Positions 829-11,509 of a stretch of DNA of 11,524 nt are shown here, piece by piece. The stretch lies in contig CANLAY010000016.1 of the NCBI GenBank assembly GCA_947488635.1, positions 1-11,524 on the forward strand, in the 5' to 3' direction. The translations under genes and the position numbers were made by a program. The notes below the pieces were generated by a model. It was not told the origin of the DNA, searched no databases, and saw nothing but the letters and a program-made list of their open reading frames with translations. Source of the DNA: Candidatus Nanopelagicaceae bacterium (GTDB taxonomy: Bacteria; Actinomycetota; Actinomycetes; Nanopelagicales; Nanopelagicaceae). Position 1 is the first letter of the stretch; each line of letters starts with the position of its first letter.

Positions 829-2754
829 TTGAGCAACGAGCTTCTTTGGCAACCAAGCGATGAAGCTATTGCCAATAGCGCTCTAACTTCATTAACTAAC
901 GCTGCCATAGCTAAAACTGGCTTAAACCTTGACTCATATGCCGATCTACATAAGTGGAGCATCAGCCAACCCGGCGACTTCTGGTCACTGGTTTGGGATC
1001 ACTTAGAAATAATTGGCGATAAGGGAAGCGTTAACTACTCCCCTGGCAAGAACTTTATTGATGCCAAGTTCTTTCCGGAAAGCTCTCTTAACATTGCCGA
1101 GAATATTCTGGCCCAAGGCAAAGAAAATGAGGTTGCCATCATTGCCATCGATGAAGCCGGCAATCGCAGTGAAGTAACTTGGGCTCAATTACGAAGTAAG
1201 TCAGCGGCTGTTGCTGCCGCCCTTACAGACCTAGGTGTTGTAGTTGGCGATCGCGTTGTTGCTTGGACTCCTAACTATGCTGAAGTAATCATTTATGCAC
1301 TCGGCGCTTTAAGTATTGGCGCTGTAGTTAGCACTTCTTCTCCTGATTTTGCCCCTAATGCAGTCCTTGATCGCTTTGGCCAAATTGAACCTAAAGTACT
1401 GCTGGCGGCTCAGAGTTATTCATATAACGGCAAATCATTTGATTGTCTTGAGCGGTTAACCGAGATTGCAGCTTCGCTGCCAACTTTAGTCAAGACCGTG
1501 TTAATCAGCGATCAAGTAACTGAGTTCACAACTTTTGATAACTGGATTGCCCCTTACCTGGGCGCAGAAGCCAAGTTTGTTCGGCTACCTTTTAACCACC
1601 CAGGTTTTGTGCTCTTCTCAAGTGGCACTACGGGTAAACCAAAGTGCATTATCCATAGCGCAGCCGGTGTTTATCTAAAGGCGGTAGCTGAGCATCGCTA
1701 TCAATTCGATACCAAGGCCGGCGATAAAGTTTTCTTCTACACAACTTGTGGCTGGATGATGTGGAACTGGCTTGCAACTGGCCTAGGTGCAGGTGCCACC
1801 ATCGTGTTATTTGATGGCCAACCGATGTATCCAAACCCGCAAAGGCTCTTTGATATTGCCCAGAACGAGAAACTTGATTTCTTTGGCGTATCTGCCAAGT
1901 TCATCGATTCAGCCGCAAAGGCTGAGTTAAAACCAATGCAGAGCCATGATTTAAGCAGCCTAAAGGTAATCGGTTCTACCGGTTCAGTTTTAGCCCCTGA
2001 GAGTTTTGATTATGTTTATCGCGAAGTGAAGAAAGATGTGCACTTGGCTTCGATGTCTGGTGGCACCGATATCTGTGGTTGTTTCGCAGCTGGTATTTCA
2101 ACCCAAGGTGTTTATCGTGGCGAACTACAAGGCGCAGTGCTCGGCATGGCTACCGATGTCTTTGACGTGCAAGGAAATTCTGCCGCGGCAGATGAAAAAG
2201 GCGAGCTAGTTTGCACCGTGCCGTTTCCTTCAAAGCCAATTGGGTTCTGGGGCGATGAAGATAACGCCAAGTATCGCAGCGCATATTACGAAGGTTTTGC
2301 TGGTGTGTGGACCCATGGTGACTTTGCTGCTAAAACTAAATCAGGTGGCTTCGTTATCTATGGCCGCAGTGATGCCACGCTAAATTCAAAAGGTGTGCGC
2401 ATCGGTACTGCTGAGATTTATCGAGTGGTTGAAACCTTTGCCCAAGTGCAAGAAGCCATGGCAGTTTCACAAGACTTCGAAGGCGATACCCGAGTTGTTC
2501 TCTTTGTAACTCTTAAGGGCATCGCGGAACTAACACCAGAGCTTGAGAAAGAACTTAAGACCGCACTTCGCGTGCAAGCCAGCCCGCGACATGTGCCAGA
2601 CCTAATTGTGGCCGCTCCTGAACTGCCTCGCACTAAATCGAATAAGTTAGTTGAGTTGGCAGTCGGTGATGTAATCAATGGTCGCGAAGTCCGCAATCGC
2701 GATGCTTTAGCTAACCCGCAAGCACTTGATTGGTTTAAGCAGTTCACGCTTTAA
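829..2754 (+). CDS. aacS: Acetoacetyl-CoA synthetase (acetoacetate-CoA ligase)
   Basis: Activates acetoacetate with ATP and CoA to acetoacetyl-CoA in the cytoplasm. The protein has 641 residues, within the usual range for this enzyme, and belongs to the ANL adenylate-forming superfamily. Visible landmarks are the P-loop-like SSGTTGKPK (residues about 264-272), the aromatic motif GWMMWNW (308-314), SGGTDICG (part of the acetoacetyl-CoA synthetase-type acyl pocket), the hinge and CoA motif beginning YGRSDATLNSKGVR (511-524), and a C-terminal RTKSNKL whose Lys606 aligns with the lysine needed for adenylation. The usual SGK there reads SNK. The start is TTG, immediately after the livM stop (TAATTG); AAAGG at 817-821 is a weak ribosome binding site 7 bases upstream. 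The N-terminus (LLWQPSDEAIANS) matches the family's usual beginning, which supports this start. Joint expression with livM fits use of acetoacetate made from leucine. An acyl-CoA synthetase of slightly different specificity is the only real alternative. Confidence 0.92.
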   Translation: MSNELLWQPSDEAIANSALTSLTNAAIAKTGLNLDSYADLHKWSISQPGDFWSLVWDHLEIIGDKGSVNYSPGKNFIDAKFFPESSLNIAENILAQGKENEVAIIAIDEAGNRSEVTWAQLRSKSAAVAAALTDLGVVVGDRVVAWTPNYAEVIIYALGALSIGAVVSTSSPDFAPNAVLDRFGQIEPKVLLAAQSYSYNGKSFDCLERLTEIAASLPTLVKTVLISDQVTEFTTFDNWIAPYLGAEAKFVRLPFNHPGFVLFSSGTTGKPKCIIHSAAGVYLKAVAEHRYQFDTKAGDKVFFYTTCGWMMWNWLATGLGAGATIVLFDGQPMYPNPQRLFDIAQNEKLDFFGVSAKFIDSAAKAELKPMQSHDLSSLKVIGSTGSVLAPESFDYVYREVKKDVHLASMSGGTDICGCFAAGISTQGVYRGELQGAVLGMATDVFDVQGNSAAADEKGELVCTVPFPSKPIGFWGDEDNAKYRSAYYEGFAGVWTHGDFAAKTKSGGFVIYGRSDATLNSKGVRIGTAEIYRVVETFAQVQEAMAVSQDFEGDTRVVLFVTLKGIAELTPELEKELKTALRVQASPRHVPDLIVAAPELPRTKSNKLVELAVGDVINGREVRNRDALANPQALDWFKQFTL

Positions 2755-4607
2755 GAAATACAGCGGAACGAGATATTCTCACTTCGAGACATACCTAGCC
2801 CCATTAGCAGCAGCTTTTCCACCCAACTCGAATCGCGCTTTCCGCCATCGACATACCAATCTGATTCGGCGATACCGCTAGTTGATTTAGCACCTTGACC
2901 ATTGCGCACGTTGTAGTCAGAGCCGCCTTTAAGGATTAAGAAGCGAGTGCGGCCATCGCTTTGTTCGCTGTCAGTTAAGTTCCAGCAAAGCGGTGTTCTG
3001 CGCTCAATTCCAGCACTATTTAGCTGCCACTCCCACTCAGTTGGAATCCGAGCCCCTCGCCATGTGGCATACGCCTGGGCATCTGCTAAATCTACATAAG
3101 TAACAGGTTGTTCAAGTTGCTCAGCAGTTGGCGCGCCAGCTACCCAATGCGCCAAGAAACGATTTGCCACCTTTGGTTGATAGCCAGTTGCTTTAATGAA
3201 TTCAAAGTATTGGCCGTTGCTAACTTCAGACTTATCAAGCACACCAGTTTTAACAGGCACGGTAATGCGATCGCTAAAGAGTTGATGAAAGTTAGGCGGC
3301 AGTGGTTTCCAGGTATCAATGAAATGAGTCTCGGTATAAAGACTGCACTCGCGGTTTCGGTATGAGAACTCAAATTCTTTATCACCACCAGTTAGTTCAA
3401 CTTTGCAAATATTCTGGTGCTTCGGAAATTCGGCTGACTTAGCTGCATAGGTAAATTCGAGTAACACACTTTCAGCCGGCATCTGCCAGATGGCAGCAAC
3501 GCCATGTGCTGGCACAATGCCAACTAAACCAAACGCAATCTCGCCGTGATAGTCCTGGGCGCTTTTATTTACGATAGTCAAAAGTGAGTTGCCTTCGCTG
3601 CTAAATCTAGAGGCATAGATTCCAGCAGCTTCAGCGGCATCAGCTAATTTAGTTAAGGGTTCCCAATCACCGCTCGTAACAAGTTCATGATGTTTGCGCA
3701 GCACCGCCACCATTTCGCGCCACATAGTTTGTTGTTGGTCATCCCAGCCGACCCAAGAGCCAAAGACGACTTCCCAGATCAACATGCCAGCGCCATTTAG
3801 CCAAGCAACCTGCATCTCTTCGCGGTGCGAACGATTCCAGCGCCGGGTCTGATGCAACATATGTCGACGTTCAAACCATTTAGCGCGCATGACGCCAGGA
3901 ATTTCACTATCGCCAAACCACTGCGCCCAAGACATGACGTGATCACAGATTCGCTCTTGCTGCACGCGAGCTTCGCCACCAACGATTACATCGGGTTTAA
4001 CGGCCAAAATAGGCGCCATAAATGCCGGGTCGGCCGACTTCATGGTGTCTAGAAAAACCCCATCAAAGCCATATAAATCAACGATTTTAGCTAGCTCTAC
4101 TTGATCGCTCTCTGGTGCGCGATTAGTCCATTTATCCCAAGGGTTGTAATTGAGATGCACTTTCACGCCCTGTGATTGCAGATCTGTAATTAACTTGGCC
4201 AGCCCTGGCACTTGGTTATAGAAATCGAATTGATTTCGTGAATCAATACCTATGACTGGATAGGCATGCCACAAGATGATGTCATCAAAGCCACCAAAGC
4301 GTTGGGCATCTGCTAATAACTTCTTAGGCGTAAAGATTTGGTTCTCAAAGTCAAAGAGCAATTCATCCCAGAGCCAGATTAGAGCTGCGTTGTAGTTAGC
4401 GCGACCGGCAATTACTTTATTTTTATATGTGCGGTCATCGTAATTAAATCTTTTGATCGCCTCACTTCGCCAATTAACTAGGTCGGCCCGCCATTGTTCG
4501 CGTTCAGCTAGCGATGCTGGCCCGGCAAAGATCTTGGCTTCATCATCGCCAACGGGAGCCGGCAGATCTACCCCACGAGGTTCTTTTGAGTTCAGATCTG
4601 TCAGCAT
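2751..4607 (-). CDS. Putative TIM-barrel glycosidase fused to a C-terminal SUMF1/FGE-like domain
   Basis: A 618-residue protein without signal peptide or membrane helices, so probably cytoplasmic. Residues about 65-310 look like a glycoside-hydrolase-type (beta/alpha)8 barrel: DDIILWHAYPVIGID (108-122), VKVHLNYNPWDKWT (148-161), YGFDGVFLDTMKSAD (179-193) and VIVGGEA (207-213). Asp187 and Glu212 sit at strand ends where such enzymes carry catalytic acids. A beta-rich stretch follows (about 330-420). Residues about 445-618 match the formylglycine-generating-enzyme fold: EVSNGQYFEFIKATGY (461-476), PVTYVDLADAQAYATWRGAR then IPTEWEWQ (501-528), LKGGSDY (559-565), SDWYVDGG (582-589) and a terminal SFRC. 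The paired catalytic cysteines of true formylglycine-generating enzymes are absent, so sulfatase activation is unlikely; a structural or sugar-binding role is more probable. It is the last gene of the operon, 6 bp after its neighbour, with no clear ribosome binding site, suggesting translational coupling. Substrate unknown; the barrel assignment rests on motif appearance only. Confidence 0.7.
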   Translation of the reverse strand: MLTDLNSKEPRGVDLPAPVGDDEAKIFAGPASLAEREQWRADLVNWRSEAIKRFNYDDRTYKNKVIAGRANYNAALIWLWDELLFDFENQIFTPKKLLADAQRFGGFDDIILWHAYPVIGIDSRNQFDFYNQVPGLAKLITDLQSQGVKVHLNYNPWDKWTNRAPESDQVELAKIVDLYGFDGVFLDTMKSADPAFMAPILAVKPDVIVGGEARVQQERICDHVMSWAQWFGDSEIPGVMRAKWFERRHMLHQTRRWNRSHREEMQVAWLNGAGMLIWEVVFGSWVGWDDQQQTMWREMVAVLRKHHELVTSGDWEPLTKLADAAEAAGIYASRFSSEGNSLLTIVNKSAQDYHGEIAFGLVGIVPAHGVAAIWQMPAESVLLEFTYAAKSAEFPKHQNICKVELTGGDKEFEFSYRNRECSLYTETHFIDTWKPLPPNFHQLFSDRITVPVKTGVLDKSEVSNGQYFEFIKATGYQPKVANRFLAHWVAGAPTAEQLEQPVTYVDLADAQAYATWRGARIPTEWEWQLNSAGIERRTPLCWNLTDSEQSDGRTRFLILKGGSDYNVRNGQGAKSTSGIAESDWYVDGGKRDSSWVEKLLLMGLGMSRSENISFRCIS

Positions 4608-4613
4608 TGCGAC

Positions 4614-5954
4614 TTAGACCAGTGCGTGAGTTCGAACTGCTAAATCAGTAAATTTGATTTGATCACAATCTGGGATGCTCGAAGTCAAACGATTATCAAT
4701 TGGATCGGCCCACTGTGCCGGAATCGCAGCGCCACCCAGCATCGCGCCACAAATTGAACCAACTGTGGCGCCAATTGAATCGGTATCCCAGCCGCCCATC
4801 ACGGTGTGGGTAATGGCAGTTGAGAATTCACCCTTGCTGCGCGCTAAGGCCAATACGCCAAGGGCTGCGTTGTTAACGGTGTGCACCCAGTGCATGCCAT
4901 CGACATGTTCGTATAACTTATCAACTGTTAGTTCGTAATCAAGATCTGAATTTCCAAGCTCGCGAGTTAGCGCACAAGCTTTATAGATGGCACTCTCTGG
5001 CGGCAGCACTGAGAAACCAGCATCTAGAACTTGATCAATATCTTTAGTAACCATGGCCATGGCATTCATCGCAGCGCTCATAGCCGCGCCATATAGGCCG
5101 TTGCGGCGATGGCTGAGCCAAGCGTCGCGAACTGCCATCTGGGCTGCTGCCTTTGGGTTACCTGGGTTAATCCAGCCATATAGATCTGTGCGAATCAGCG
5201 CCCCAATCCACTCCTTAAATGGATTGTTCAGTCCACCCACAACCATCGGATCTAAGCCATCGAGCAAATTGCGATAAACAATGCGCTCGGCTGTGAAAAC
5301 TTTGCCAGCTGGCAGATTCTTTAACCATTGATCGGCAATGTGATCGGTATTGAAATCTCGGCCAAACTTTTCAACTGTCAAGAGTGCAATCAATGGATAA
5401 TTTAAATCATCATCTTCGGCCATGCCATCGATATTCTCTTGTAAACAAGTCTTACCGCTCTGGGTATTCCACGGGTGCCTAACTAAAACTTCAGCAGGCA
5501 CGCCTTGGGCGGTGAAATATTGCTTCAGCGGCCAACGCCCACTTGATTCAAGAATTGCGCGAATGCCAACTCGTTGAACTTTTTCAACTGGTTTGCCAAG
5601 TAAGCAACCTGCTGCCCGACCTAGCCAAGCACCATGAAAAGTATTTAGATCGGGCTTTTGCGCAGACGGTGTATCAGGTAGATCGTTTAAGAATTTTTCA
5701 TAATCTAATTCAGGATTTGCTTGTAACTTTGCTTCGACCCGAGCACAGATAGCACCTGCGAGCTCACGCATTTGCGCTGATGCCGGCACTGCACTGGCAC
5801 CGACAACTGACGCTTGCGAGACTCCCCCAGCAGCTTCCCATTCCGAGATTTCTGCGGCAACATCAACGCCTTCATACTTTGCTTGGCCGAAAAAGTGCCC
5901 CACTAAATCTTCTGGCTGTGCCCAAGTAACTCGTAACTTAAATGGGCTGCTCAT
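4614..5954 (-). CDS. ADP-ribosylglycohydrolase-fold protein, long form with N-terminal extension
   Basis: A 446-residue cytoplasmic protein of the ADP-ribosylglycohydrolase (DraG/ARH) family: all-alpha hydrolases that use a dinuclear Mg or Mn site to break a glycosidic bond at a ribose C1. The core starts near residue 105 with FHGAWLGRAAGCLLGKPVEK. The first metal motif appears as AEDDDLNY (179-186) in place of the common TDDT. The second is intact as GGWDTDSIGA (387-396). Residues 1 to about 100 are an extension (WAQPEDLVGHFFGQ, then a helical, acidic region) not found in the minimal family fold. The protein differs clearly from the shorter paralogue just upstream, so this is not a recent duplication. 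The start ATG lies 2 bp after that gene's stop, with no clear ribosome binding site, consistent with coupled translation. Its place behind sugar-import genes suggests a small imported glycoside or nucleoside-like substrate rather than ADP-ribosylated protein. Family is firm; substrate is unknown. Confidence 0.85.
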   Translation of the reverse strand: MSSPFKLRVTWAQPEDLVGHFFGQAKYEGVDVAAEISEWEAAGGVSQASVVGASAVPASAQMRELAGAICARVEAKLQANPELDYEKFLNDLPDTPSAQKPDLNTFHGAWLGRAAGCLLGKPVEKVQRVGIRAILESSGRWPLKQYFTAQGVPAEVLVRHPWNTQSGKTCLQENIDGMAEDDDLNYPLIALLTVEKFGRDFNTDHIADQWLKNLPAGKVFTAERIVYRNLLDGLDPMVVGGLNNPFKEWIGALIRTDLYGWINPGNPKAAAQMAVRDAWLSHRRNGLYGAAMSAAMNAMAMVTKDIDQVLDAGFSVLPPESAIYKACALTRELGNSDLDYELTVDKLYEHVDGMHWVHTVNNAALGVLALARSKGEFSTAITHTVMGGWDTDSIGATVGSICGAMLGGAAIPAQWADPIDNRLTSSIPDCDQIKFTDLAVRTHALV

Positions 5955-5956
5955 AC

Positions 5957-7099
5957 TTAATTATTACCGAAAAGAGCAGCTGATGCTTTAGCCACAACCG
6001 CGGCCTTTTGCGCATCGCGGGCCGCAACTTCGGTAGCAATCTTTGCCAGCTTCTTGCCATTAGCAACTAAATCAATGCGGCTTTCGCGCTCAATAGTCTC
6101 AGCCCAGTTATGCGGAATCACCTGGCGGCCGTTCATGGCGCCACTTAGCGAACCAAACATGGTTGCGATTGAATCAGAGTCACGGCCATAGTTAATTGCA
6201 CCGAGTACGCCATCTTCAAAGTTGCCCTTTGAGACTTGCAAATATGCCAGCGCCAATGGCAACTCTTCAATTGCCTTAAGGCGTGAAGGTTTACGGGCAT
6301 CTGGACCTGGTTCGCGGTAGGCCTCACCTAGTGAATCAAATGGTGCCATAGCAGCACGCAGTTGATGAAAACTAGTTTCCCAAGATTTAACGTTTTTAGC
6401 TTCATCGGTCACAGCTTGAATTGCCGCCTTAGTGCCATCGTGAGCGAAAGCAATTGCATTGTTAATTACCTCATCGATGGTGGCCCCTGGCGTCATGGCA
6501 GTGGCAACAGCTGCTGCAAATACGCCAGCTGCTTCGCGACCATAACTTGATTGGTGTGCGCCAGCAATTTCAATTGCTTCTTTATAAGCAGCTTCGGGAT
6601 TACCGGCATTGATAATGCCAACTGGGGTCATATACATAGTTGCACCGCAGTTAACAATGTTGCCGTAACCAGCTTCGCGTGGGTCAGCATGTGCATGGAG
6701 AAGTTTTAACACTAACCACTTTTCAGCATGAAAGACGCGGTGAATTAAAAGTGATTCGCGTTCTAGTTCAGGGATCCAACGCTCTTTGGCCATCATTTCA
6801 GGCACGATGCCTTCGGCAAAAGTAAATGCATCTAGGTGATCGCGCACTTGATCGTAAACATTGATCAGCGCTTCAGTCATCAAAGTGTCATCAGTTATAT
6901 GGCCGTTGCCTTTGTGAAAAGGTGAAACTGGCCGAGCTGTTTTCCACTCAACATTAAAGGGCCCAACAATGTCGCGGACTAATCCGCCAAAGCGCTCTTG
7001 TAGTACTTCTGGGCTATAGCCTTCAGTTGCACCGCCGAGTGAATCTCCGACAGCAGCACCTGATAAGGCGCCAATAGCTTTTTCTTCCAAGAGCGACAT
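5957..7099 (-). CDS. ADP-ribosylglycohydrolase-fold protein, compact form
   Basis: A 380-residue cytoplasmic member of the DraG/ARH family, close to the usual family size. It starts with the family's typical AIGALSGAAVGDSLGGATEG (residues 8-27). Both metal-binding motifs are present: ITDDTLM (68-74) and GRDSDSIA (305-312, with Asp307 and Asp309), and a GAMNG turn follows at about 320-324. These residues bind two divalent metals that position water for attack on a ribose-linked glycosidic bond. The C-terminal 30 residues are alanine- and lysine-rich and look like a tail. ATG at 7097-7099 is chosen because the conserved N-terminus begins directly after it; GGATAAAG just upstream is at best a weak ribosome binding site. 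It is the first gene after the hairpin-containing gap and is followed at 2 bp by the long-form relative. Possible roles include hydrolysis of an imported ribosyl compound or removal of ADP-ribose from a protein; the operon context favours the first. Confidence 0.87.
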   Translation of the reverse strand: MSLLEEKAIGALSGAAVGDSLGGATEGYSPEVLQERFGGLVRDIVGPFNVEWKTARPVSPFHKGNGHITDDTLMTEALINVYDQVRDHLDAFTFAEGIVPEMMAKERWIPELERESLLIHRVFHAEKWLVLKLLHAHADPREAGYGNIVNCGATMYMTPVGIINAGNPEAAYKEAIEIAGAHQSSYGREAAGVFAAAVATAMTPGATIDEVINNAIAFAHDGTKAAIQAVTDEAKNVKSWETSFHQLRAAMAPFDSLGEAYREPGPDARKPSRLKAIEELPLALAYLQVSKGNFEDGVLGAINYGRDSDSIATMFGSLSGAMNGRQVIPHNWAETIERESRIDLVANGKKLAKIATEVAARDAQKAAVVAKASAALFGNN

Positions 7100-7233
7100 C
7101 TTTATCCATTCTTAAATTTATTAGTTATTACATGAAAAGTTTGCATCCGGTGAAGTCCAGTTGGGGCGGCATTTTAGAGCCGCCCCAACTGGTTCATTCA
7201 TCCTCGGATGATCAATCAGGGATTAATCAGCGA
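7100..7233 (-). other. 134-bp gap between the binding-protein gene and the first ADP-ribosylglycohydrolase gene
   Basis: No open frame of note. The right part holds a strong GC-rich hairpin and a short tandem repeat next to the binding-protein stop codon (both listed separately). The left part, 7100-7140, is AT-rich and could carry a weak promoter for the enzyme genes (for instance TAATAA-like boxes on the - strand), but no box pair is convincing enough to call. Confidence 0.5.
7157..7192 (-). terminator. Perfect 14-bp GC-rich hairpin after the binding-protein gene; terminator, attenuator or mRNA stabiliser
   Basis: The arms CCAGTTGGGGCGGC (7157-7170) and GCCGCCCCAACTGG (7179-7192) are exact reverse complements around an 8-base loop ATTTTAGA. 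On the - strand the hairpin begins 41 bases after the binding-protein stop codon and is not followed by a run of T, so it is not a textbook intrinsic terminator. Actinobacterial terminators often lack a clear T-run, so termination or partial termination remains possible. An alternative is protection of the binding-protein mRNA 3' end, giving more binding protein than the downstream enzymes. The hairpin itself is certain; its role is inferred. Confidence 0.75.
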
Positions 7234-7236
7234 TTA
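7214..7236. repeat. Short tandem repeat at the end of the binding-protein gene
   Basis: AATCAGGGATTA (7214-7225) is followed, sharing one base, by AATCAGCGATTA (7225-7236). They differ at one position, with a period of 11 bases. The second copy contains the binding-protein stop codon (TTA on the + strand at 7234-7236). It looks like a small local duplication; no function can be assigned. Confidence 0.5.
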
Positions 7237-8502
7237 ACGAATAGCTTTAAAGCCATCTACTAGACGCTTCTTAAGCTCTGTTACTGAGATCTTGCCCTGC
7301 AAGTACTGCTGCATCGCAGGTTGTAGAACTGTGTCCTTCCACTTCTGGTACTTAGGTACCAAAGTGAATGGAGCAAGAGCTAGTGCTTCGCCGTCATCAA
7401 GAATCTGAGTCCAGCCAGCGCTATCTTTCTTAGTCGCAAGTGCAGACTTTAGTGAACCCTTTGTTGAAGGAATAAGGCCTTCGCCAAGTGCTAGTTCAGA
7501 TAAATTTGCATCCTGAAGCATGTAGCGAATAAACGCTGCAGCTTGCTTTGGATACTTGCTCTGCTTAGATACAGATAGTGTCTGTGGGTTTGCACCTTGC
7601 TTGTTGGTGACACCCTTAAGCAATGGAAGTGCTGTCCAGTTGAAACCAGCAGCCTTAGCAGCAACATCTAGATCTGCAGCAACGTAGCTAGCAGCGAAGA
7701 TCATTGCGTACTTACCAGCTAGGAATCCTGGCACTGGGCCAGCACCTGACATGGATAGTGCAGCAGGGTCAATTGACTTATCTGTGTAGATCATGTCCCA
7801 AATACGTGTTGGTACTTCGAGTTCGGGCTTATTAACACTCAAAGTTGGGCCAGCTGAAGTTGTTAAGCCACGGAAGAATTGAGCATTGTAGTTCATACCC
7901 ATGATCATGGTCATTGCAGCTGGTGAACGAAGTCCCCATGCCACGCCGTACTTACCATCGGTTGTGAACTTCTTTGCCAATTCGCGGTAGTCATCCCAAG
8001 TAAAGGTATTTGTACCGGTAGGAATCTTCACGCCAGCCTTCTTAAACGCATCAACGTTTGCGAAAACTGTGTAGGTCTGAGTCATTGTTGGAGCGCCGTA
8101 TAGCTTGTTCTTGTATGAACCAACAGCCCAAAGACCAGCTGGAATTGAGCTCTTAAGTGGAGCCATTTCCTTTGATAGGTCAGCAAGGTAACCCTGCTTT
8201 GAGAATTCCAAAATTGAAGCAGCTTCATGTTGGAAGATATCTGGAGCAACATTTCCAGCGAAAGCTGTTGTTAGTTTGTCCTGCATGTTGTTAACGTCGC
8301 CGTAAACAATCTTTACAGTTGCATTTGGATTAGCTTTGTTCCAGTCAGCCACGATGCGCTCAGTTGAAGCAACAGTGCCCTTTAGATAAGCCGGGGTTAG
8401 ATAAGTCATTTCAATTCCAGCAGCACGTGCAGGAATTGTGACGGCAAGGCTTGCAGTCATGGCAAAAGCTGCCACTACTGCAAATAACTTACTCTTCTTC
8501 AC
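7234..8502 (-). CDS. Sugar ABC transporter substrate-binding protein, SBP family 1 (CUT1 type)
   Basis: Captures the sugar substrate outside the membrane and delivers it to the two permeases encoded just upstream. The 422-residue length is normal for family 1 binding proteins. Residues 1-28 form a Sec signal peptide: basic MKKSK, a hydrophobic core (LFAVVAAFAMTASLAV), then PARA before AG, which suits signal peptidase I. There is no lipobox cysteine, unusual for a Gram-positive binding protein. The mature part has typical features: ADWNKANPNATVKIVYGD (about 48-65), GNVAPDIFQHEAASILEFSKQGYLADLS, and FLAGKYAMIFAASYVAA. The start is GTG at 8500-8502, supported by a strong GAGGAGA ribosome binding site and the signal peptide directly after it. 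The gene follows its permeases instead of preceding them, and gaps on both sides set it apart, suggesting separately tuned, higher expression. Substrate cannot be read from the sequence. Confidence 0.93.
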   Translation of the reverse strand: MKKSKLFAVVAAFAMTASLAVTIPARAAGIEMTYLTPAYLKGTVASTERIVADWNKANPNATVKIVYGDVNNMQDKLTTAFAGNVAPDIFQHEAASILEFSKQGYLADLSKEMAPLKSSIPAGLWAVGSYKNKLYGAPTMTQTYTVFANVDAFKKAGVKIPTGTNTFTWDDYRELAKKFTTDGKYGVAWGLRSPAAMTMIMGMNYNAQFFRGLTTSAGPTLSVNKPELEVPTRIWDMIYTDKSIDPAALSMSGAGPVPGFLAGKYAMIFAASYVAADLDVAAKAAGFNWTALPLLKGVTNKQGANPQTLSVSKQSKYPKQAAAFIRYMLQDANLSELALGEGLIPSTKGSLKSALATKKDSAGWTQILDDGEALALAPFTLVPKYQKWKDTVLQPAMQQYLQGKISVTELKKRLVDGFKAIR

Positions 8503-8507
8503 TTAGT

Positions 8508-8514
8508 TCTCCTC
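8508..8514 (-). promoter_or_regulatory. Strong ribosome binding site of the binding-protein gene
   Basis: The - strand reads GAGGAGA, with 6 bases (ACTAAG side) before the GTG start at 8500-8502. It fixes the choice of GTG. The core AGGAG is flanked by two copies of AACTAAG (+ strand CTTAGTT at 8502-8508 and 8514-8520), a small local repeat. It is the best ribosome binding site in the window together with that of the regulator gene. Confidence 0.85.
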
Positions 8515-8528
8515 TTAGTTAATTAATA

Positions 8529-8550
8529 AGCTACTCATCGGTGAGAAGCT
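8529..8550. repeat. Imperfect inverted repeat upstream of the binding-protein gene (hairpin or operator candidate)
   Basis: On the + strand AGCT-A-CTCA is followed by TCGG and then TGAG-A-AGCT. Eight of nine arm positions pair, with an A-A mismatch in the middle. The centre contains CG, as LacI-family operators do, but the half-site does not match the clear operator at 11490-11509, so a different regulator or an RNA hairpin in the leader is equally likely. Confidence 0.45.
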
Positions 8551-8562
8551 CTTTACTGCTAA

Positions 8563-8585
8563 AGATCTGACACTTATGTAGATCT
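8563..8585. repeat. Imperfect inverted repeat with two AGATCT boxes
   Basis: AGATCT (8563-8568), an unpaired G, ACA, loop CTTA, TGT, AGATCT (8580-8585): nine pairs with one bulge. On the + strand it is followed by CTTTTTG, which resembles a terminator, but no transcript is expected on that strand here. As part of the - strand leader it could form a hairpin; function unknown. Confidence 0.4.
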
Positions 8586-8667
8586 CTTTTTGATGATCAT
8601 CCGGTTTTGAACAAATTACTTCTAATTCGAACTAAACCTTTCTCGCTGTAGCTTTTATCCGACCCCC

Positions 8668-9546
8668 TTATCCCTTAACGGCACCGGCTAATAAGCCGCT
8701 AGCAAGTTTGCGTTGCATGATTCCGAAGATCACCAGTGATGGGATCGTCGCTAAGAAAGCACCAGCTGCTAATGGGCCAAGTAATACCTGACCTTCAGAG
8801 CCCATAAAGCGCGCCAAAGTAAGTGGCAACGTTTCATTTTCGGGTGACTGAATTAGTACTAGCGCAAAGAAGAATTCATTCCAGGAATTAAGGAAGGTAA
8901 AGAGCGCAGTTGCCACGATTCCCGGAACCAGCAGTGGGAAAACGATTCGGCGCAGAATTTGAAATGAAGATGCGCCATCCATAGCGCCGGCTTCTTCGAG
9001 ATCTAACGGAATTGAAGATACGTAACCTTTTAACATCCAGAGCGCGAATGGCAAGCTAGCTACAAGGTAGACCAGCACCAGACCCCAGATGGTATCTAGC
9101 AAGCCAATCCGCCTGACTGCCATAAAGAGCGGAATGATAATTAGCGATACCGGGAAAACTTGGCTAACTAAAATCCAGCCAGTTGCAATGCCTGAAAACA
9201 CTTTGCGCAGGCGAGCAATTGCATATGCAGCTGGCACTGTAAAGACTGTGGTCAGCGCAGCTGTTAGCAGCGCAATTACAAAGCTATTTTTCGCCGAGTT
9301 AATCAGACCGCGCTTTTCGATAATATCTATGTAGTTCTGCCAGTAGAAACCATCTGGAATAAGTGAAGGATTTAGCTGCAATAACTCATACGGGCTCTTT
9401 AGCGAAATACTAAACATCCAGAGAAACGGGAATCCTAAGAAGAGCAAGTAGAAGATAACAGCAATATAGGTCGGAATTAAGTAGTACTTACGCTTTTTCT
9501 TCTCAAGTGGAAGATCCGCGAGATTGACTTTCGTTGTATTACTCAT
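8668..9546 (-). CDS. Sugar ABC transporter permease, MalG-like (CUT1 family)
   Basis: One of the two membrane subunits of the sugar importer. The protein has 292 residues and six likely membrane helices (about 22-46, 85-110, 121-142, 152-173, 206-232, 258-276). The cytoplasmic EAA loop that contacts the ATPase is clear: EEAGAMDGASSFQILRRIVFPLL (184-206, conserved Glu185, Ala186 and Gly191). The segment FLNSWNEFFFALVL (218-231) after it is typical of MalG-type permeases. The N-terminus is cytoplasmic and lysine-rich. The ATG overlaps the stop of the preceding permease gene by 4 bp (ATGA), and AGAGGA lies 9 bases upstream, so translation is coupled. No ATPase gene accompanies the pair; CUT1 systems in actinobacteria often share an MsiK-type ATPase encoded elsewhere, which is the likely case here. 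Confidence 0.93.
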   Translation of the reverse strand: MSNTTKVNLADLPLEKKKRKYYLIPTYIAVIFYLLFLGFPFLWMFSISLKSPYELLQLNPSLIPDGFYWQNYIDIIEKRGLINSAKNSFVIALLTAALTTVFTVPAAYAIARLRKVFSGIATGWILVSQVFPVSLIIIPLFMAVRRIGLLDTIWGLVLVYLVASLPFALWMLKGYVSSIPLDLEEAGAMDGASSFQILRRIVFPLLVPGIVATALFTFLNSWNEFFFALVLIQSPENETLPLTLARFMGSEGQVLLGPLAAGAFLATIPSLVIFGIMQRKLASGLLAGAVKG

Positions 9547-10478
9547 CGCTGAGTATCCTCTCGCTTGCTCACCTTTAGGTAAATTGAAAGCATGCCCACA
9601 ATTGCAAGGGCCATGACGACACCCATAGAGGCGGCATAGCCGAAATTTCCATATTTAAATGCTTCGTTATATGCAAAGAGCGCGGGCACAAAGGTTTTGC
9701 CACCTGGCCCGCCCGCCGTAAGAACGAAGACCAAACCGAAGGAACTAAAGTTCCAGATAATATTTAGCGCAACTAACGCAGTTGTAATTGCGCGCACTGC
9801 TGGCAGGGTTATAAACCTAAAACGCTGCCAAGCATTAGCGCCATCGATTACCGAAGCCTCAACCATTTCAGTTGGAATTCCTTGAAGCGCTGCCAAAATA
9901 GAAACGGTGATAATTGGCATGCCGACCCAGGCGCCAATTAAAATAACGGTCGGAAGCGCAGTATTGAAATCACCTAGCCAGTCAGTACGTGCTCCTGGAA
10001 TGTGCAAGAAAGTGAAGATGCCTTCAATTGGACCGCTCGTTGGACGCAATAAAAGGCTCCACATAATTGCAACAACTACTGGCGGCATTGCCCAAGGGAC
10101 AAGTGAGAGAACACGCATCAGCCCAAGCAAACGCAGCTTTTGATTTAACAGAAGCGCTAAACCGAAACCAAGAACTAAAGCCAGAAGTGTTACTGAAACG
10201 GCCCAGATAATGCCGATTCTAAATGACTGCCAGAAAAGAGTATCGCCAGCTAATCTGCGGAAGTTCTCAAAGCCAATGAAGGAAACCGTTACTTCAAATC
10301 CCGCTACTGAATCAGTAAAGGCAGTCCAGATAGCTTGAACCAAAGGCACAACGCTAAGCAGCACTAGTGGGATAAAGGCCGGCAGGGCATAGATCCAGGC
10401 ACCGCGGTTATACATCTTGGCCTTACTAGATTTTTTAGCCTTCTTTAACTTAACTTCTTTCACAGCTGTATTACTCAT
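9543..10478 (-). CDS. Sugar ABC transporter permease, MalF/UgpA-like (CUT1 family)
   Basis: The partner membrane subunit of the importer. The protein has 311 residues: a very basic N-terminal tail (residues 8-21, rich in lysine), then about six membrane helices (roughly 28-53, 86-112, 124-146, 175-196, 229-256, 279-301). The EAA loop reads EASVIDGANAWQRFRFITLP (207-226). FVLTAGGPGGKT (251-262) is the family's usual stretch before the last helix. The ATG overlaps the regulator's stop by 4 bp, and its own stop overlaps the next permease's start by 4 bp, so regulator and both permeases form one coupled translation unit. Only a weak ribosome binding site is visible. The family is certain; the transported sugar is not determined. 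Confidence 0.93.
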   Translation of the reverse strand: MSNTAVKEVKLKKAKKSSKAKMYNRGAWIYALPAFIPLVLLSVVPLVQAIWTAFTDSVAGFEVTVSFIGFENFRRLAGDTLFWQSFRIGIIWAVSVTLLALVLGFGLALLLNQKLRLLGLMRVLSLVPWAMPPVVVAIMWSLLLRPTSGPIEGIFTFLHIPGARTDWLGDFNTALPTVILIGAWVGMPIITVSILAALQGIPTEMVEASVIDGANAWQRFRFITLPAVRAITTALVALNIIWNFSSFGLVFVLTAGGPGGKTFVPALFAYNEAFKYGNFGYAASMGVVMALAIVGMLSIYLKVSKREDTQR

Positions 10479-11470
10479 TTCTTTGCCGTTGATTCTCTAA
10501 TTACCAATTTGGGTTCAACGGTGATCTGCTTTGAAGCTCGATCAGGGTTAGCTAAACGATCAAGTATCAATTGCGCCGCGATTTCGCCACGCTCTTCGGC
10601 CTTTAAATCAACGCTGGTAAGAGTCGGATGCAAAAGCGAAGCTATATCAGTGTTATCGATACCAACAATTGCAATATCTCCCGGAATCGAAATACCGTTT
10701 TCAGATGCAAACTTCATCGCACCTGCGGCCAACTGGTCGTTCGCGCAAATGAAAGCATCGAACTTTGAAAAGTCATTAATCTCAGAGAAAGCGAAATAAC
10801 CAGCTTCAGGTGAGAAAGTATTGGCTTGAATAACACTTGCTTTATCAAATTTAAATCCAGCTGCCTTGATAGCTTTTTCAAATGCGGCCTTACGGCGAAC
10901 ACCTGGCTTGGTAGTTAGCGGACCGTTAATCAAACCAATCTTGGTGCGACCAGTTTGAATTAAATGTTCAACCGCCATTGCGATACCGGCACTTGAATCA
11001 ACATGCACGTTATCAACATCTACCCCGTCAGGCAGGTTTCCAATTAGAACAACTGGCATTTGTAGCGCTGAGATCAATTTAGTAATTCGCTCATCGCTAT
11101 AAATTGGCGAAATGATTAAGCCATCGGCAAAGCCGCGACCCATAGTTTGTAAGTGCTTAACAATCTCTTCAACGCTAGAAAAAGCCGAAGATAAAATCAA
11201 GCGATACTTAGATGAACTTAGCTCGCGCCCAACACCGCGGGTCATCGCGATATATGCCGGGTTTGCAAGATCATCGAAAGATAAACAGATCTGCTCTGAT
11301 TGGCGCACCTTTAGTGCACGCGCTGCTGAGTTTGGTTGGTAATCCAATTCGGCAATTGCTTTGCGCACTCGCGCTTCAGTATCAGCACGAGCTGCAGTGC
11401 CATTGATTACGCGAGATACCGAGGCCACGGAAACGCCAGCCTGCTTGGCTACCGCCTCAATATTGGCCAC
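10475..11470 (-). CDS. LacI-family transcriptional regulator of the sugar operon
   Basis: A cytoplasmic DNA-binding repressor, 331 residues, normal for the family. The helix-turn-helix occupies about residues 3-22 (IEAVAKQAGVSVASVSRVIN), and the hinge helix is PNSAARALKVR (46-56), which inserts into the central CG of the operator. Residues 60-331 are the periplasmic-binding-protein-like sensor domain, with VDSSAGIAMAVEHLI (157-171), a conserved Arg pair in PGVRRKAAF (189-197), ANDQLAAGAM (243-252) and IVGIDNTDIASLLHPTLTSV (268-287); in this family these regions line the sugar pocket. The start is GTG at 11468-11470, with GGGGGAG 6 bases upstream and the helix-turn-helix directly after it. It is the first gene of the - strand operon, with a matching operator in its own leader, so it very probably controls itself and all downstream genes. 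Its effector is likely the imported sugar or a breakdown product. Confidence 0.93.
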   Translation of the reverse strand: MANIEAVAKQAGVSVASVSRVINGTAARADTEARVRKAIAELDYQPNSAARALKVRQSEQICLSFDDLANPAYIAMTRGVGRELSSSKYRLILSSAFSSVEEIVKHLQTMGRGFADGLIISPIYSDERITKLISALQMPVVLIGNLPDGVDVDNVHVDSSAGIAMAVEHLIQTGRTKIGLINGPLTTKPGVRRKAAFEKAIKAAGFKFDKASVIQANTFSPEAGYFAFSEINDFSKFDAFICANDQLAAGAMKFASENGISIPGDIAIVGIDNTDIASLLHPTLTSVDLKAEERGEIAAQLILDRLANPDRASKQITVEPKLVIRESTAKK

Positions 11471-11476
11471 TTAGAA

Positions 11477-11483
11477 CTCCCCC
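11477..11483 (-). promoter_or_regulatory. Ribosome binding site of the lacI-family gene
   Basis: The - strand reads GGGGGAG, 6 bases before the GTG start at 11468-11470. The good match and spacing decide the start codon. Confidence 0.8.
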
Positions 11484-11489
11484 ACGCTT

Positions 11490-11509
11490 AACTGTAATCG
11501 TTTACAGTT
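11490..11509 (-). promoter_or_regulatory. LacI-family operator in the operon leader
   Basis: The + strand reads AACTGTAATCGTTTACAGTT: perfect 8-bp arms around TCGT, with the central CG typical for LacI-family sites. The - strand core TGTAAACGATTACA differs from a symmetric TGTAAACGTTTACA site by one base. It lies 20 bases upstream of the regulator's GTG, so a bound repressor would block transcription of the whole - strand operon. The promoter must overlap it or lie just outside the window. TACAGT inside the site is a possible -10 box, but no good -35 box can be paired with it. Confidence 0.85.

Follow-up and report, generated by a model that had tools for sequence, protein, structure and literature searches.

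The locus

ARH-fold proteins are routinely read as erasers of ADP-ribosylation, and the known enzymes of this fold act on ADP-ribosyl groups. What, then, might two of them do in an operon with a sugar importer? The question is raised by a contig of a Candidatus Nanopelagicaceae bacterium (genome 0.92 Mb, 61% complete), the whole of which, 11,524 nt, is referred to here as the window. Seven minus-strand genes run in one direction behind a LacI-type operator (Table 1), and the contig ends 15 bases beyond that operator. From lacI to the barrel gene, the intergenic spacings are -4, -4, 165, 134, 2 and 6 nt; hence, real gaps occur solely on either side of the gene for the sugar-binding protein (SBP). 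Coordinates and spacings thus agree with the tight packing, except around the SBP gene, described in the initial annotation of this DNA.

Table 1. Features of the locus, in window coordinates
Feature	Position	Strand	Basis
LacI-type operator palindrome AACTGTAATCGTTTACAGTT	11490..11509	.	pattern match in window and relatives
LacI-family regulator	10475..11470	-	Pfam LacI and Peripla_BP_3; best NCBIfam match RbsR/PurR-like, below cut-offs
CUT1 permease, UgpA/MalF-like	9543..10478	-	profile matches
CUT1 permease, GlcU/MalG-like	8668..9546	-	profile matches
SBP, hydrophobic N-terminal signal	7234..8502	-	Pfam SBP_bac_1
RNA hairpin, SBP-ARH gap	7157..7192	-	14 perfect pairs
ARH short, ARH/DraG-fold hydrolase	5957..7099	-	PF03747, 149 bits
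ARH long, ARH/DraG-fold hydrolase, ~100-residue N-terminal extension	4614..5954	-	PF03747
Glycosidase-like barrel + beta-sandwich + degenerate SUMF1/FGE-type domain	2751..4607	-	

Pfam returned LacI, BPD_transp_1 (twice), SBP_bac_1, PF03747 (twice) and PF03781, confirming the two ARH-fold proteins and the SUMF1 domain noted earlier. A scan of the window's nine main reading frames found no kinase, isomerase or Pfam-recognised glycosidase.

Operator and importer

The operator palindrome pairs at 9/10 positions and lies 19 nt from the lacI start. Its pattern matches the window once, as the initial annotation held, and matches none of 200 shuffled sequences. The sequence ACTGTAAACGATTACAGT precedes lacI in freshwater members with a readable lacI, and 64 of the 69 readable loci have a related palindrome upstream of lacI. 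In eight of nine genomes searched, the operator core occurs exactly once, always directly upstream of the operon lacI; a second exact site was found in none of the nine. The core is absent from the remaining genome (G177), which has a lone, full-length barrel gene; the 20 kb read there contain no other gene of the window's operon.

The importer is an ordinary CUT1 system, comprising an SBP_bac_1 protein and two MalFG-type permeases. It does not make this an Rbs operon, in which a CUT2 importer (RbsABC) accompanies RbsK: the importer here is CUT1, and a kinase is present in relatives only. The best solved relative of the SBP is Lmo0181 (5f7v, 73 bits), and its best solved relatives are by name sugar or oligosaccharide binders, none of them riboside-specific. 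Candidate MsiK/UgpC-like ATPases (62–64% matches) are encoded elsewhere in all five genomes searched, including the window's own.

Between the SBP and ARH genes lies a strong predicted RNA hairpin (z -5.9). Uninterrupted stems of 14–17 bp occupy the same place in five of six freshwater relatives inspected, the exception being L073. This hairpin would perhaps set SBP expression above that of the enzymes.

Enzymes of the operon

Judged by crude hydropathy, the N-termini of both ARHs and of the barrel protein have no strongly hydrophobic stretch, in keeping with the earlier observation that they carry no signal peptides. The PF03747 scores (162.2 and 149.3 bits) stand well above the gathering score of 26.2. 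In ARH-fold enzymes, a binuclear metal site is formed by a (T/D)DD motif close to the N-terminus and a DxD(S/T) motif close to the C-terminus. Both motifs are complete in each ARH and invariant across the alignments, in 40/40 rows for ARH long (36–39 sequences plus the window) and in 30/30 rows for ARH short (29 of 77 plus the window), where the residues are T69 D70 D71 and D307 D309 S310. ARH long is modelled with an ARH3-like fold, and its distribution is patchy (12/296).

The barrel has no Pfam glycoside hydrolase match; its predicted fold resembles GH129 and GH13. In these families the catalytic residues are an Asp after strand 4 and a Glu after strand 5. The barrel has D187 and E212 in these places, assigned by strand order rather than residue-level superposition, and both are invariant (39 of 80 barrels plus the window). 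Formylglycine-generating enzymes have a pair of active-site cysteines in their C-terminal segment. In 40 aligned rows, the SUMF1 domain lacks this pair: Cys is frequent only at C616 (34/40) and at 514, before the GGS motif (20/40), with no recurring Cys between that motif and C616. A role as sulfatase activator was rejected because the pair is absent. A role as sulfoxide synthase was also rejected, with weak EgtB and SenA scores.

Recurrence in Actinobacteria

We collected 80 actinobacterial barrel loci, the best-scoring of 333 relatives, so the counts favour close relatives. Four of them (L072–L075) are on the same contigs as L030, L031, L033 and L034. Gene presence was scored by translated BLAST (plus strand, E <= 1e-6), and the diversity described comes solely from scanning genomes, contigs and plasmids. 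Among these best-scoring loci, the order of the detected genes is identical in 79/80, and all ten genes are present in 61 of the 70 with enough flank. The full order is LacI, permease, permease, SBP, ARH, ARH, ribokinase, barrel/SUMF1, CoA transferase and CitE-like lyase. The set occurs in many genera, including Kribbella, Amycolatopsis, Nocardioides and Promicromonospora. Since one gene order spans these genera and we found no description of the set in the open-licence PMC literature, there is good support for the initial proposal of an undescribed glycoside pathway.

There are exceptions. L135 has barrel and kinase only; in L106, LacI, ARH short, kinase, transferase and lyase were not found; L144 has a displaced LacI and no kinase. 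The kinase is missing from L105, L138, L145 and L074, and kinase, transferase and lyase from L143, L070, L071 and L076. Acetoacetate-CoA ligase was rejected as an operon member: its convergent gene comes after a LivM-like one and, among the loci searched, turned up in L070, L071 and L076 only. Esterase-like matches occur in 15/80 loci, with PF00756 confirmed on two. Distance correlations among nine operon genes are high across 61 loci (Spearman 0.67–0.87, species kinship not factored out) and are given no weight here.

The distribution is broad but patchy. Among 396 sampled genomes of the phylum, only the window's own has a full-length barrel; 68 others have matches to SUMF1-type stretches only. 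In the window's family, 18/201 genomes have a barrel match, six of them full-length. ARH, ribokinase and CUT1 genes also occur together on plasmids of Mycolicibacterium and Deinococcus; Nonomuraea has this combination as well, there with four ARHs. A Sphingopyxis plasmid carries barrel, ribokinase and CoA transferase.

The kinase and acid genes

A ribokinase-family gene lies between the ARHs and the barrel in 64 of 73 testable loci. For the one example compared (L090), every one of the 11 solved relatives reaching E <= 1e-30 bears the name ribokinase, and the protein has the GGKGANQA and DTTAAGD motifs in common with them. Ribokinase scores of 240 and 260 fall below the curated cut-off of 300. 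CoA transferase and CitE-like C-C lyase are each present in 70/76 operon copies. At this locus, neither the window nor its three closest relatives have any of these three genes. The absence of a kinase gene stands for the window's reading frames but is not diagnostic of the system, most orthologous operons having one; it is a trait of the window's lineage.

Ribokinase-like genes were found elsewhere in six of six related genomes searched. Neither acid gene has a match in the window's own genome (61% complete). The three closest relatives encode a CoA transferase (71–72%) and a CitE homologue (45–46%) elsewhere. These may serve another pathway, as in two of the three they lie beside amidohydrolase, cyclase and PrpD-like genes; the exact operator core is absent there.

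Importer-less loci

Seven Streptomyces-like loci (L203–L209) combine a set of four ARHs with a CoA transferase and a lyase. In none is a CUT1 importer or LacI found beside this enzyme core, and the kinase is undetected in two. The enzymes thus occur apart from the transporter in Streptomyces-like genomes, a pattern that goes part of the way towards one named in advance as counting against a joint pathway; in most barrel loci, the importer is kept. The extra ARH pair and the barrel never occur together (0/80; 0/8), as expected if both do the same kind of job. Flanking genes are presumably gltB, lgt, dsbA and trpAB. By position, S. coelicolor SCO2028–2031 probably correspond to this importer-less form, with its four ARHs near trp genes, and probably belong to this gene system.

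Proposed pathway and alternatives

On balance, we think that the window probably carries a pared-down version of a recurring operon for LacI-controlled import and intracellular cleavage of a ribose-type glycoside/acid conjugate. From the gene set, its order and conservation, the motifs, predicted folds and operator, we infer the substrate, every reaction and the step order as follows. LacI would repress the operon from its one operator until released by substrate or product. The SBP and permeases, with an ATPase encoded elsewhere, would import a ribose-type (furanosyl) glycoside, which in the full system probably bears or esterifies a malate-, citramalate- or HMG-type hydroxy-dicarboxylic acid. 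In the cytosol, glycosidic bonds would be cut by the barrel/SUMF1 protein, acting as a glycosidase of GH13/GH129-like type and bearing a lectin-like tail, and also by the two metal-dependent ARH-fold hydrolases. Ribokinase, which most taxa examined encode within the operon and which the window's lineage may obtain from elsewhere in its genome, would phosphorylate the sugar. In full operons, CoA transferase would activate the acid and the CitE-like lyase would split the resulting CoA ester, yielding central metabolites. Of the particular substrates weighed, RG-II, arsenosugar, methanopterin and HMG-ester compounds, none could be supported.

The ribokinase-family gene between the ARHs and the barrel in orthologous operons favours a ribosyl compound, as initially proposed. 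Its nucleoside-like or ADP-ribose-derived variants are less likely, since CoA transferase and lyase in most copies point to an acid conjugate. Salvage of such compounds, with the ARHs as nucleoside or ADP-ribose hydrolases, is accordingly rather improbable, though the E. coli yegTUV operon encodes an ARH, a sugar kinase and a nucleoside symporter, all three putative (PMC10819704). Neither a CUT1 importer nor a glycosidase-like barrel, a CoA transferase or a CitE-like lyase has an obvious role in salvage. Outside the ten genes, no family, most being unannotated, is common to more than 9 of 32 clustered loci.

A greater, if still minor, chance attaches to a glycoside operon whose sugar is not ribose: another furanoside (arabinofuranoside, apioside, aceric-acid-like) or a pyranoside, the kinase having shifted in specificity. 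The sub-cut-off kinase scores would fit this, as would the Sphingopyxis barrel, which lies beside a GH127-type protein (its sole NCBIfam match, aceric acid hydrolase, scores 83 bits where the cut-off is 950), and PF03747 members may be functionally diverse. Against it, the best solved relatives of the kinase are ribokinases, and ARHs are known to act at ribose C1. It is very improbable that the ARHs are regulatory ADP-ribosyl erasers co-transcribed by chance, as PF03747 membership might suggest: in nearly all loci examined, two to four paralogues accompany ribokinase and/or CoA transferase and lyase genes. Two reports list SCO2028–2030 (PMC5087735) and SCO2028–2031 (PMC9411070) as ADP-ribosyl hydrolases; in a third, SCO2028 and SCO2030 are inactive on U-ADPr, one substrate only (PMC13036486).

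We suggest, tentatively, that across Actinobacteria the conjugate pathway acts on an acid-bearing ribofuranoside: the ARHs would be catabolic ribosidases, the barrel and second ARH pair interchangeable, the acid consumed by CoA transferase and CitE, and SCO2028–2031-type proteins pathway enzymes rather than erasers. If the ARHs are catabolic, an actinobacterial branch of PF03747 has been misread, probably including proteins screened as Streptomyces ADP-ribosyl hydrolases. The operon would also imply that soil and fresh water offer a sugar-acid conjugate, and its ten co-conserved genes provide a handle for finding it, many of them being carried by isolated strains of the genera named above.

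Relation to known systems

Actinobacterial CUT1/LacI oligosaccharide loci comprise LacI, SBP, two permeases and intracellular hydrolases, with a shared MsiK-type ATPase. Like them, the window operon has no ATPase gene; unlike them, it encodes ARH-fold and unclassified barrel hydrolases in place of Pfam-recognised GH families and, in most copies, a CoA transferase/CitE acid module. The L203–L209 clusters differ in having no barrel, LacI or CUT1 genes alongside, and SCO2028–2031 differ in being treated in print as enzymes of ADP-ribosylation reversal (PMC5087735, PMC9411070, PMC13036486). The yegTUV operon likewise joins a putative importer, ARH-fold hydrolase and sugar kinase under a dedicated repressor; it has one ARH, an MFS nucleoside-type symporter and a GntR-type repressor, and its function is stated to be unknown (PMC10819704). 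With three genes, it is without barrel, CoA transferase and lyase. The RipABC, citramalyl-CoA and malyl-CoA pathways resemble the acid module in that a family III CoA transferase is followed by a CitE-like CoA-ester lyase. The module differs in scoring far below the equivalog cut-offs, in its absence at the window's locus and in being tied to glycoside uptake.

A recurring ten-gene operon in Actinomycetota

We searched the barrel/SUMF1 family in 84,980 species genomes, found relatives in 333 stretches, and fetched the best 80 of these, scoring ten genes in each. Going by sequence titles, all 80 belong to the Actinomycetota, with genera including Amycolatopsis, Kribbella, Nocardioides, Promicromonospora, Georgenia, Cellulosimicrobium, Micromonospora and Nocardiopsis. 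In those of the best 80 that reach 9 kb or more upstream, LacI is present in 71/73, each CUT1 permease and the sugar-binding protein (SBP) in 72/73, ARH short in 71/73, ARH long in 72/73 and a ribokinase-family gene in 64/73. Of the 76 loci that extend 2.5 kb or more downstream, 70 have a family III CoA transferase; a CitE-like lyase is likewise found in 70. Of the 70 loci with both flanks, 61 hold the complete ten-gene set; across all 80, the detected genes are collinear in 79. An esterase-like protein is matched in 15 of the 80; PF00756 was confirmed for two examples, one of which (L146) also has SBBP beta-propeller-type repeat matches.

Among 396 sampled genomes of the phylum, a full-length barrel match was found in the window's own genome only, and within its family in 6 of 201 genomes. 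Separately, several genomes of this family encode proteins of ~500 residues with SUMF1-type matches (L009–L016, L021–L028); in a given genome these fall either in two adjacent proteins or twice within a single frame. The gene set was not described in the literature searched (open-licence papers only). The operon is real and recurring, taxonomically broad yet patchy, probably catabolic and apparently undescribed.

A glycoside-type catabolic pathway, with every reaction proposed, would accommodate these genes. The SBP would capture a sugar conjugate for import, the barrel and ARHs may then open it, and a ribose-type sugar could be phosphorylated. In the full operons, the transferase would activate the leftover acid as a CoA ester, which the CitE-like lyase would then cleave. 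Best relatives of the lyase are RipC/CitE/malyl-CoA-type enzymes, and those of the CoA transferase are glutarate, hydroxymethylglutarate, oxalate, formyl-CoA, carnitine and mesaconate transferases; where an equivalog cut-off has been set, the scores of both proteins lie far under it.

The window carries a reduced version

The window spans the whole of contig C16 from a small actinobacterial genome (0.92 Mb, 61% complete). Its minus strand encodes lacI, two CUT1 permeases, the SBP, two PF03747 (ADP-ribosylglycohydrolase, ARH) proteins and a 618-residue protein in which Pfam recognises nothing but a C-terminal SUMF1/FGE-type domain. The initial annotation had claimed a seven-gene, one-strand set with a LacI operator, and this is borne out by gene calls, Pfam, gap lengths (−4, −4, 165, 134, 2 and 6 nt) and the palindrome. 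Genes for a LivM-like permease and an acetoacetate-CoA ligase converge on the operon from the plus strand, and this neighbour pair is also kept in L070, L071 and L076. The lack of an obvious lipobox cysteine in the SBP is unusual for a Gram-positive binding protein.

Coordinates of features in the window and of clusters in L177 and L178
Sequence	Positions	Feature
Window	2751–2754	4-base overlap of the convergent acetoacetate-CoA ligase and barrel genes
Window	7157–7192	Perfect 14-bp hairpin, 3′ of the SBP gene, before the ARH short gene
Window	8404–8502	SBP N-terminus; signal-like, ends in ARAAG, without obvious lipobox cysteine
L177	5118–14099	IclR regulator, allantoinase/dihydropyrimidinase-like amidohydrolase, CoA transferase, arylformamidase-like cyclase, PrpD-like protein, CitE-like lyase (proteins scanned)
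L178	4434–11361	Same make-up as L177, assigned by similarity

Like its closest relatives among the best 80 of 333 (L070, L071 and L076; barrel identities of 90%, 83% and 92%), the window is without ribokinase, CoA transferase and lyase at the locus, and carries a reduced version of the recurring operon. Loci L072–L074 retain CoA transferase and lyase and are without ribokinase. L071, whose operon proteins are 83–98% identical to those of the window, is a public contig titled as a Bifidobacterium breve MAG, probably a mislabel.

It seems that the window lineage either uses the sugar half only or depends on genes elsewhere. Ribokinase-like genes (39–42% identical) lie off-operon in 6/6 genomes tested, including the window's own, as do MsiK/UgpC-like ATPases in 5/5 genomes searched. 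The genomes of L070, L071 and L076 hold a CoA transferase (71–72%) and a CitE homologue (45–46%) at a different site; a tie to the operon is uncertain, because in two of the three the neighbours are an allantoinase/dihydropyrimidinase-like amidohydrolase, an arylformamidase-like cyclase and a PrpD-like protein. The L177/L178 cluster looks like a separate ring-opening pathway with a CoA-ester lyase as its last step. A search of the window genome (61% complete) gave no match to either the CoA transferase or the CitE homologue.

Regulatory elements

A LacI-type palindrome, with 9 of 10 positions pairing, lies 19 nt upstream of the window lacI. Its core, CTGTAANCGNTTACAG, occurs in exactly one copy in eight of nine related genomes, always immediately before this lacI; the ninth (G177), in which a lone barrel gene is the only operon gene found, lacks it. 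Related TGTAA- or TGGAA-type palindromes precede lacI in 64 of 69 readable loci among the best 80, 12 of them matched by a looser pattern only.

Uninterrupted stems of 14–17 bp occupy the place equivalent to the window hairpin in 5 of 6 freshwater relatives checked. This conservation, after the SBP gene, suggests separate control of SBP and enzyme levels. As no T-run follows the hairpin, it is perhaps an mRNA-stabilising or processing element.

Other arrangements of the ARH genes

At E ≤ 1e-20, 12 of 296 phylum genomes, including that of the window, gave a match to ARH long, and 13 contexts were fetched from ten of the 12. Seven of these (L203–L209), each from a different genome of one genus (7.8–9.9 Mb), hold four ARHs in a row (ARH-A, ARH-B, short and long), followed in 7/7 by CoA transferase and then CitE-like lyase; ribokinase is present in 5/7, and barrel, LacI and CUT1 gave no match beside the cluster in any of the seven. 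The flanks, which we take to be gltB and lgt-dsbA-trpAB, presumably mark a Streptomyces-like setting; the clusters read as one chromosomal position, between gltB-like and trpBA-like genes, in all seven genomes. The remaining six contexts contain weaker ARHs (33–41%), with CUT1 permeases in one, ribokinase in one and a distant CitE-like match (27–28%) in two.

Nonomuraea combines LacI, CUT1 and ribokinase with the same four ARH kinds; over a distance of 12 kb, barrel, CoA transferase and lyase gave no match there. Plasmids of Mycolicibacterium and Deinococcus carry ARH-ribokinase-CUT1-LacI sets. The barrel and the extra ARH pair look like alternative solutions to the same step, since they were never found together: the pair is absent from all 80 barrel loci (best 80 of 333), and the barrel from all eight extra-ARH loci. 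Elsewhere, the barrel adjoins ribokinase, a GH127-type protein and CoA transferase in Sphingopyxis, and in Spirosoma it lies amid sugar genes, where none of the neighbours is annotated as an ARH.

Comparison with known systems

PMC5087735 lists S. coelicolor SCO2028–2030, and PMC9411070 SCO2028–2031, as uncharacterised DraG/ARH hydrolases; SCO2028 and SCO2030 are reported as inactive on U-ADPr (PMC13036486). SCO2038 is trpX, within the trpCXBA locus (PMC5036795). By position, close to trp genes, SCO2028–2031 would fit the L203–L209-type clusters and are probably their counterparts. A further parallel is E. coli yegTUV, an operon of no known function whose products are given in PMC10819704 as putative (nucleoside symporter, ARH and sugar kinase): there, as in the operon described here, transporter, ARH and sugar kinase are grouped.
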